A stretch of DNA of 7,709 bases, from the NCBI GenBank assembly GCA_900556525.1, contig USOZ01000078.1, forward strand, positions 1-7,709, written 5' to 3'. Below are positions 3,001-4,401 of the stretch, piece after piece. Within the stretch, counting starts at the first letter, position 1. Every line of letters begins with the position of its first letter. Position numbers and translations under genes: made by a program. Source of the DNA: an uncultured Oscillospiraceae bacterium (GTDB taxonomy: Bacteria > Bacillota > Clostridia > Oscillospirales > Ruminococcaceae). Below the pieces are notes generated by a model. It was not told the DNA's origin. It saw only the letters and a program-made list of their open reading frames with translations, and did not search any database.

Positions 3001-3234
3001 CTCTGCCGCGGGATAAAGTTCCTGCCCGTTCATTTCGAGAAGTCGCACGCGACGAAGTATGTTATTGAAAACGGCGATCTGCGGCTTCCTTTCCTGTCGG
3101 TCGAGGGCTGCGGAGAAAATGCGGCAAACGCACTCTACGACGCTATTCAGCGGCATGATTATATCAGTATTGAGGACTTGCGCAGCCAGTCGGGGCTTAA
3201 CGGTTCGACTATGGATAAGCTCGAAACGTCGTAA
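1..3234 (+). CDS. polC: DNA polymerase III PolC (Gram-positive type alpha subunit), truncated at both ends and with an apparent internal deletion
   Basis: Replicative DNA polymerase with built-in 3'-5' proofreading. The frame is open from base 1. The ATG at 16 is internal, since PolC normally has about 300 more N-terminal residues (N-terminal and OB domains). Visible in order: PHP motifs HMHSNMSDMD (nt 73-102) and ITDHGNV (from nt 166); the inserted DnaQ-like exonuclease with FDLETTG (Asp 352, Glu 358), AHNAKFD and HHRAIDD (nt 763-783); the rest of PHP; then the polymerase core with GSRGSVGSSF, a four-Cys zinc knuckle (codons at 1807, 1816, 1882, 1891), catalytic Asps in PDIDLNF (1969, 1975) and in LKLDELGHD (2230), SGLSHGTDVWLGNAQELI, and KKIKYMFPKAHAAAY. 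Two oddities are seen by comparison with remembered B. subtilis PolC. About 38-40 residues are missing between EKTAEG and MVVVP (nt 2092-2100), including the KRTTGQHPGG region. The C-terminus also stops at LETS, where the family continues about 15-18 residues to a beta-clamp-binding tail such as QLSLF. The TAA at 3232 comes from inverted hisZ sequence. Family identity is certain; integrity is doubtful. Confidence 0.96.
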   Translation, partial: NFTSAMLVKTIAKADTAEVKRVELHMHSNMSDMDAVTPPADLINQAYKWGHPAVAITDHGNVQAYPEVMGAWDKIMKNDKETKFKVIYGMEAYFVNDESTLIEGCTSRPINDEIIIFDLETTGLNAGEERITEIGAVKLKNLEVVDEFQTFVNPEKPIPANITEITGIDDSMVANAPLEHEALHRFVEFCGNAPLVAHNAKFDMSFVRAGCNRCRIPYKADSIDTLALCRAIIPNKKSYTLDAMAAHFKLGNFNHHRAIDDAKMLANIFISLVGESRKGRTIEKLGDLNLAAGKMDVKKMPSFHQIILVKNNTGLKNLYRLIGMSNLSYYYKKPRIPMSELKNYREGLILGSACEAGELYRAIVEGKSEEKIEEIAKFYDYLEIQPIGNNAFMLRNGTVKSELELQAINQRIVELGDKLGIPVVATCDVHFMRAEDSIFREILQAGQGYQDASNQPPLYLRTTDEMLEEFAYLGAEKAYEVVVENTNRIADMIERIRPIPKGTFTPHLDGAEEELQQLCWDRAMDWYGYEGVIPDIVKNRLERELQSIIKYGFSVLYMIAQKLVAFSEKNGYLVGSRGSVGSSFVAIMSGISEVNPLPPHYRCKKCRWNEFITDGSVGSGFDLPAKKCPKCGEEMFRDGHDIPFETFLGFKGDKAPDIDLNFSGEVQSKVHKYTEDLFGSDHVFKAGTISAVQEKTAEGMVVVPNDYDIYDFSAVQRPADDATKDIITTHFDFHALHDTILKLDELGHDVPTLYKHLEDMTGIKIADVSTSDEKVYSLFTSPEALGITEAETGIKVGTYGLPEFGTNFVIGMLLESKPKNFSDLLQISGLSHGTDVWLGNAQELIANGTCTISEVIGTRDNIMVYLLHKGLEPSLAFKIMEITRKGNATKLFTDEIYQAFKDNNVPDWYVESCKKIKYMFPKAHAAAYVTGAVKLGWYKIYHPSEFYAAILTKHTENIEIRIALQGKDAVKARMQQIQANPDATPKEKSTYEAFLLVHEMLCRGIKFLPVHFEKSHATKYVIENGDLRLPFLSVEGCGENAANALYDAIQRHDYISIEDLRSQSGLNGSTMDKLETS

Positions 3235-3380
3235 AATTCAAGCCCGGGCGTTACCGCCTCGGTATATCCGCGGCTGAGAAAAATGCCGCGCAGCTTTGCG
3301 TCCGCCGCTCTGAGCGCAACACATTCGTCAAACAGCAGGTCGCGTGTTCCCTCGGGGGTAAGCAGGTCGTATCTCTTCAT
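3225..3380 (-). pseudogene. hisZ: Inverted 5' fragment of hisZ (first ~52 codons)
   Basis: Read on the minus strand from the ATG at 3380, this encodes MKRYDLLTPEGTRDLLF and runs on to TPGLEFYDV, a typical HisZ N-terminus with the class II tRNA-synthetase-like motif 1 region. After Val52 (codon 3227-3225) the frame enters antisense polC and stops resembling HisZ. The expected continuation (DVF, then roughly 20 residues up to YKLTD) is absent. The remainder of hisZ lies immediately to the right but on the opposite strand, so this is the missing start of the same gene, flipped. Only about 9 bases of leader are retained upstream of the ATG (reverse complement of 3381-3389, ending ataagaca), and no Shine-Dalgarno is seen in them. 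It cannot be expressed as a functional protein in this arrangement. Residue-by-residue fit to HisZ is strong; the number of missing codons is inferred from family memory. Confidence 0.9.
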
Positions 3381-3389
3381 TGTCTTATA
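3232..3389. other. Inverted ~158-bp segment joining polC and hisZ
   Basis: Left of this block the + strand reads polC, and right of it the + strand reads hisZ from AKGRLMVMRPDST. The block itself only makes sense on the minus strand, as the hisZ start. Edges are approximate. The left join lies within 3224-3231 (aaacgtcg), which could belong to either polC (GAA ACG TCG) or antisense hisZ (GAC GTT T). The right join lies near 3388-3390, just before GCG AAA GGC. A plain inversion would retain the polC tail, the intergenic region and hisZ codons ~53-72; all are gone, so the event is inversion plus deletion on both sides, or a double template switch. I see no matching inverted repeats at the two edges. 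Confidence 0.82.
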
Positions 3390-4401
3390 CGCGAAAGGCC
3401 GCCTTATGGTAATGCGCCCCGATTCGACAATGCCTATCGCGCGTCTTGTCGGGACGCGTCTGCGTGAAGAAGTTTTCCCGCTGAAGCTGTTTTACAGCCA
3501 GACGATATATCGCGTAAACCCGAAAAACAGCGGACGTGACGATGAATTTTTCCAGAGCGGAATAGAAATAATCGGCGGAGATGTGCGCCGTTCCGACCTT
3601 GAGGCGCTGTCCGTTGCTATTGACGTAATGGCGGCGTTCGAGGCGGAGGATTACCGCTTTGAAATAGGCGACAGTGCATTTTTCGCGATACTCTCGTCGC
3701 AGCTCGGGCTTAACGAGGAGCAGCTTGACGAGGTACGCACGCTTGTGCAGAACAAGAACTACTGCGAGCTTTCGGAGTGCCTTTCCGTTCACTGCGGAAA
3801 TCCCTACGCGACTGCGCTCGCGCAGCTCCCGAAGCTGTTCGGCGGCAGAGAAGTGTTCGACGAAGCGGAAAAAATTCTTCCCGACGAGAACACGAAATTT
3901 GTTCTAAAAAGACTCCGTGAGCTTTATGATAACCTTTGTGCTCTCGGCGCGGGCGAACGCGTGACGGTCGATCTCGGCATGGTGAGCCGCAACGAGGATT
4001 ACTACACGGGAGTTGTTTTCAAAGGCTATGCGGCGGGTTACGGAATGCCTGTTCTGACGGGCGGACGTTACGACAAGCTGATTTCAGATTTCGGAGTTGA
4101 TATGCCTGCGACGGGCTTTGCGGTGAATGTAAACGCGGTCGCGCGCCTTATCATGAACAATGCGCAGGGTCGGCTGACTAAGCTCCCCGATGTTGTTGTA
4201 TTCGCGGAGGAGGACAGCCTTGTAGAGGGTATGCTGCATTGCCGCGAGCTTATTTCCGACGGACTTACCGCCGACCACGCGGATTTTAAAACGCTTGACG
4301 AGGCAAAGGCTTACGCAGAAGAACGGGGAATACAGCGGCTTGACGTTGTTTCGGGCGGAGATGTAACGATACTGAATCTCTCCGACGGAAAGGAAGAGTG
4401 A
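3283..4401 (+). CDS. hisZ: ATP phosphoribosyltransferase regulatory subunit HisZ; genuine sequence only from ~3390, 5' part inverted
   Basis: HisZ is a catalytically inactive HisS paralogue that assembles with short-form HisG to make active, histidine-inhibitable ATP phosphoribosyltransferase (step 1 of histidine synthesis, cytoplasmic). The open frame begins at ATG 3283, but its first ~34 codons (MPRSFASAALSATHSSNSR and on) are antisense to the inverted hisZ start and are not HisZ. Homology begins at AKGRLMVMRPDSTMPIARL (from 3391). It continues through FYSQTIYRVNP, DDEFFQSGIEIIG, LFGGREVF, VDLGMVSRNEDYYTGVVFKG, GGRYDKLISDFG and TGFAVNVNAVARL, and ends in a small C-terminal alpha/beta domain. 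From 3391 to the stop is 336 codons. With the 52 inverted codons and about 20 missing, the native protein would be near 408-410 residues, normal for the family. The stop is 1 nt before hisG, indicating translational coupling. As drawn, the gene lacks its N-terminal synthetase-like portion and is probably non-functional. Confidence 0.88.
   Translation: MPRSFASAALSATHSSNSRSRVPSGVSRSYLFIVLYAKGRLMVMRPDSTMPIARLVGTRLREEVFPLKLFYSQTIYRVNPKNSGRDDEFFQSGIEIIGGDVRRSDLEALSVAIDVMAAFEAEDYRFEIGDSAFFAILSSQLGLNEEQLDEVRTLVQNKNYCELSECLSVHCGNPYATALAQLPKLFGGREVFDEAEKILPDENTKFVLKRLRELYDNLCALGAGERVTVDLGMVSRNEDYYTGVVFKGYAAGYGMPVLTGGRYDKLISDFGVDMPATGFAVNVNAVARLIMNNAQGRLTKLPDVVVFAEEDSLVEGMLHCRELISDGLTADHADFKTLDEAKAYAEERGIQRLDVVSGGDVTILNLSDGKEE

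Follow-up and report, generated by a model that had tools for sequence, protein, structure and literature searches.

A short piece of DNA can come to lie backwards in several described ways. Template-switch microinversions are short inverted pieces that arise when replication switches to the other strand and back. In invertible phase-variation elements, a short inverted stretch sits where a gene begins. Inverted pieces also arise in vitro during multiple displacement amplification (MDA). The chimera counts published for MDA of a single Escherichia coli cell (PMC1855051) list 406 of 475 chimeras as inverted with an intervening deletion, 337 of which brought together pieces from within 10 kb of each other. 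At least two complementary bases were present at 76.8% of the chimeras, and direct deletions joining segments less than 10 kb apart were rare (11 of 475). A sequence-only reading of the DNA analyzed here had named inversion with loss as an artefact pattern of MDA, which these counts bear out. For human DNA (PMC3142133), the reported share of mate-pairs spanning putative inversions was 0.12% before MDA and 6.2% after it; for pairs classed as tandem repeats or double inversions it was 0.06% and 0.5%, respectively. The latter increase implies that double events occur.

We analyzed a stretch of 7,709 nucleotides, referred to in its entirety as the window, that carries polC, hisZ, hisG, hisD, a hisC-like gene and hisB in that order. 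The beginning of hisZ is inverted relative to the rest of the gene. We conclude that this reversal of the hisZ start is most likely not a real feature, and that it is probably an in vitro chimera produced by two strand switches of the kind that occur in MDA. The features of the window are collected in Table 1.

Table 1. Features of the window, in order of position.
Feature	Position	Strand	Remarks
Contig head, unfit to PolC	1..9	+	three codons differ from P0121, followed by a near-identical run of 1072 pairs
polC, partial, from about residue 328 to residue 1437 of P0121	10..3225	+	without residues 1024-1061 and 1438-1456
Junction of the in-frame direct deletion in polC	2095..2097	+	flanked by Gly codons (GGN), which gives 2 or more bases in common
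Left junction, polC to antisense hisZ	3224..3226	.	at most 2 shared bases (3224-3225), from codons
Inverted hisZ start, residues 1-52	3225..3380	-	52/52 identical to P0001
Mechanical 372-codon ORF	3283..4401	+	36 codons, mostly antisense hisZ, in frame with HisZ 71-406
Inverted bases probably left from the spacer upstream of hisZ, with right junction	3381..3390	-	inferred
hisZ residues 71-406 and stop (4399-4401)	3391..4401	+	333/336 identical to P0001
hisG, 212 codons	4403..5041	+	no gap against relatives
hisD, 431 codons	5059..6354	+	no gap against relatives
hisC-like aminotransferase, 346 codons	6354..7394	+	below TIGR01141 cut-off
hisB residues 1-94	7405..7686	+	91/94 identical to P0241
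Contig tail, unfit to HisB	7687..7709	.	no second copy in window

We used P0001, an intact HisZ of 406 residues, as the reference for hisZ. Its cluster comprises 37 member sequences on 25 contigs, the longest of 345,340 bases, and could include the protein of the window itself. The sequence-only reading had placed a HisZ N-terminus on the minus strand and the resumption of HisZ on the plus strand. Comparing the translations with P0001 confirmed both halves, and chance is ruled out for the exact match of 52 residues. The reading had also estimated that about 20 codons were missing between the halves. The loss itself stands, but it amounts to 18 codons (residues 53-70), or, as the breakpoints are uncertain, roughly 51 bases. 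The spacer and ribosome binding site of hisZ had been counted as missing as well; about 8-10 bases of the sequence upstream of the start codon probably survive.

Neither HisZ 53-70 nor PolC 1438-1456 gave a tblastn match anywhere in the window, and four control segments of matching size did. Five-residue words told the same story: 1 of 14 was found in the window for HisZ 53-70, 1 of 34 for PolC 1024-1061 and 0 of 15 for PolC 1438-1456, compared with 34 of 34, 15 of 15, 14 of 14 and 32 of 41 for the controls. The single words found for HisZ 53-70 and PolC 1024-1061 are chance matches. Alignment of the best 120 of 1601 HisZ matches showed that residues 1-52 and 53-70 are both filled in 118 of these relatives. 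The exceptions are P0002, which starts late, and P0086, which fills 38 of the 52 positions. Motif patterns had recovered both segments in 77 of the same best 120; for PolC as for HisZ, such patterns proved too stringent, and we rely on the alignment counts instead.

The damage extends beyond hisZ, and this is new evidence that goes beyond the sequence-only reading, which mentioned neither the PolC losses nor the contig ends. The reference for polC was P0121, the nearest PolC (1456 residues). The left join cuts PolC after residue 1437, and the last 19 residues, which carry the C-terminal clamp-binding motif, are lost. A second loss is the in-frame deletion of 38 codons (114 bases) that removes residues 1024-1061. 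The alignment with P0121 spans 1110 columns, of which 1069 are identical and 38 are gaps. Because PolC differs from P0121 at only 3 of 1072 aligned positions outside the breaks, the gene is not decaying. The corresponding differences are 3 of 336 in HisZ and 3 of 94 in HisB. Both lost PolC stretches are filled in all 120 relatives aligned (the best 120 of 7977 matches). In that set, the pattern GxKRTxxQHPG was found in 117 (not in P0154, P0203 and P0210) and a C-terminal clamp-like motif in 119 (not in P0231). Solved PolC structures, 9qpc among them, align over a region that includes residues 1024-1061. For Bacillus subtilis, the PolC results given in PMC12309361 describe an essential enzyme whose clamp-binding motif is C-terminal, and deletion of the motif as lethal.

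We read the breakpoints from codons against P0121 and P0001, because our searches returned no same-species DNA; at every join but the polC deletion, the numbers of shared bases are therefore upper limits. The right join lies at 3388-3391 and shares at most 2 bases (3389-3390). By our calculation, a random join has a chance of about 16% of sharing two or more bases, so the shared bases add little weight to an MDA origin. With at most 2-3 shared bases, the joins do not appear to have been made by k-mer overlap. The 9-base head occurs at position 1 only, and its reverse complement is absent from the window. The tail has no second site in the window at up to 3 mismatches, no exact 15-base match in 21 loci and, in six frames, no 6-residue word in the fetched proteins. 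Foreign bases of this kind at contig ends may reflect chimeras that an assembler could not resolve.

The intact HisZ, PolC and HisB in the protein collection look like proteins of the same species. The sequence-only reading had called for a search for a sibling contig in which polC and hisZ are collinear. The nearest genomes with polC beside hisZ, L001/L013 and L014, carry polC, hisZ and hisG collinearly, with HisZ 70% and 67% identical to P0001, respectively. About 391 bases (L001) or 164 bases (L014) separate the last polC codon from the hisZ start. Same-species DNA was not found among genome contigs (12 related loci, best 66%), among viral contigs (8 pattern-matching stretches, none encoding a relative), in the 11 genomes behind the related loci, in 396 genomes of the G001 family (2 matches at 67-70%), in 71 genomes of the G001 genus (16 matches, best 70%) or in 3 genomes of the G174 genus (1 match). 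In the other fetched relatives, polC was not found upstream of the his genes within the ~5.8 kb or less examined.

Several observations concern the relatives and the rest of the his locus. Several of L003, L007, L010, L014 and L001 have palindrome-like stretches, e.g. TACTATGGTAATTGATTAGCATAGTA, at a distance of 30-60 bases upstream of hisZ. Presumably they resemble operator sites of a histidine regulator. The hisC-like gene scored 251 bits against a TIGR01141 hisC cut-off of 276.55 and is only 27-32% identical to the genes at the same position in four fetched relatives. Some record titles are at odds with content: L001 is filed as Roseburia and has a Clostridia-like polC-his locus, HisZ P0039 is named Bacteroides sp., and L005 is filed as Bacteroidia.

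The order of the pieces and of the losses, as read from the sequence and the intact relatives, is clear. We infer the two strand switches, amplification of the sample, and MDA as the reaction. A growing copy of the polC strand would detach near the end of polC and prime on the opposite strand inside hisZ. Copying would then run through hisZ backwards, past its start codon, until the polymerase returned to the original strand inside hisZ. Both switches would fall within ~160 bases, with sequence omitted at both joins. The locus has the hallmarks of published MDA chimeras in two respects. It combines an inversion with intervening deletion (52 codons inverted; 18 hisZ and 19 polC codons lost), and its segments lie less than 10 kb apart, with all pieces coming from the polC-hisZ boundary.

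Other aspects fit MDA poorly. Published chimeras involve one switch each, and here there are two close together. The window has three internal junctions in 7.7 kb, compared with one per 10-22 kb for MDA. Published rates of one per 22 kb or one per 10 kb predict 0.35-0.77 junctions, and the probability of three internal junctions is then 0.006-0.043. The density of junctions and the rarity of direct deletions indicate either that this fragment was unusually damaged or that another technical step contributed. It is on these grounds that we regard the strand-switch chimera as probable, other technical artefacts as unlikely and a real event as more unlikely still.

The technical alternatives are a chimera from library preparation or PCR, and a short contig placed in the wrong orientation and closed by a scaffolder or gap filler. 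The inversion, the PolC losses and the bad ends apply to them equally. The direct 114-base deletion, atypical for MDA, and damage denser than MDA averages speak in their favor. However, no run of N and no long overlap marks any scaffold join, and MDA is the reaction with a published signature of inverted pieces that have lost sequence on both sides. We give this group only a small share of the probability.

A genuine microinversion, formed by replication template switching in a dead-end, dying or merodiploid lineage, is improbable. The order of the points (polC end, hisZ start, codon 52, codon 71) matches that expected from a switch to the other strand followed by a return, and the joins share little sequence. 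Against this, PolC lacks 38 residues as well as the clamp motif, whose deletion is lethal in B. subtilis (PMC12309361, in the results cited above), and no second polC is in view. HisZ lacks residues 1-70, near-identical intact proteins exist, and both contig ends are damaged too. With PolC broken twice, a growing cell is unlikely to have carried a real microinversion. A living lineage that combines two PolC lesions with near-identical sequence would be implausible, barring another copy of polC. An accident within one lineage, in which a template switch by the cell's own polymerase disabled both polC and the histidine pathway and a second polymerase copy sustained the cell, would be very improbable.

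The sequence-only reading had also considered a switchable element that turns hisZ off and on. A short segment that begins near the hisZ start codon is what such an element would present, and we nevertheless assign it almost no probability. Sequence has been lost at both joins, so flipping the segment back can restore neither gene; the missing HisZ 53-70 and PolC 1438-1456 had no tblastn match in the window. In addition, the inverted repeats detected in 3150-3480 are three 7-base pairs, none of which pairs the two borders, and there is no recombinase among the six genes of the window. A remodelled real gene, encoding a 372-residue HisZ with a new N-terminus from 3283, is hardly credible and the ORF is unsupported as a gene: the frame is open to 4401, but most of its first 36 codons come from antisense hisZ, and three antisense words looked for in the best 120 of 1601 HisZ matches occur in 0 of them. 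Such a gene would also lack the N-terminal portion of the HisZ fold, and it would not account for the second PolC lesion. The order proposed by the sequence-only reading, with a chimera ahead of a microinversion and a switch last, is thus strengthened by the second PolC lesion, the non-matching ends and the intact proteins.

A contig whose open frames look clean can conceal an inversion, a deletion and bad sequence at both ends, and such damage is revealed only by comparison with intact relatives. Taken at face value, this one could be read as evidence for a gene switch, for a truncated PolC or for a HisZ whose N-terminus is new. A real rearrangement would mean that a lineage survives without the PolC clamp motif.

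Compared with known systems, the locus shares with invertible phase-variation elements the short inverted DNA at the start of a gene, but it differs from them in that inverted repeats do not border it, the window encodes no recombinase, and sequence has been lost at both joins. It resembles replication template-switch microinversions in its short inverted piece. Unlike them, it carries two losses in a polymerase gene that is essential in B. subtilis, and its form is absent from the relatives seen. It departs from the MDA chimeras tabulated by Lasken and Stockwell (2007, PMC1855051) in its two switches within ~160 bases and in the short direct deletion nearby, whereas its inversion, intervening loss, nearby pieces and sparse shared sequence are like theirs.
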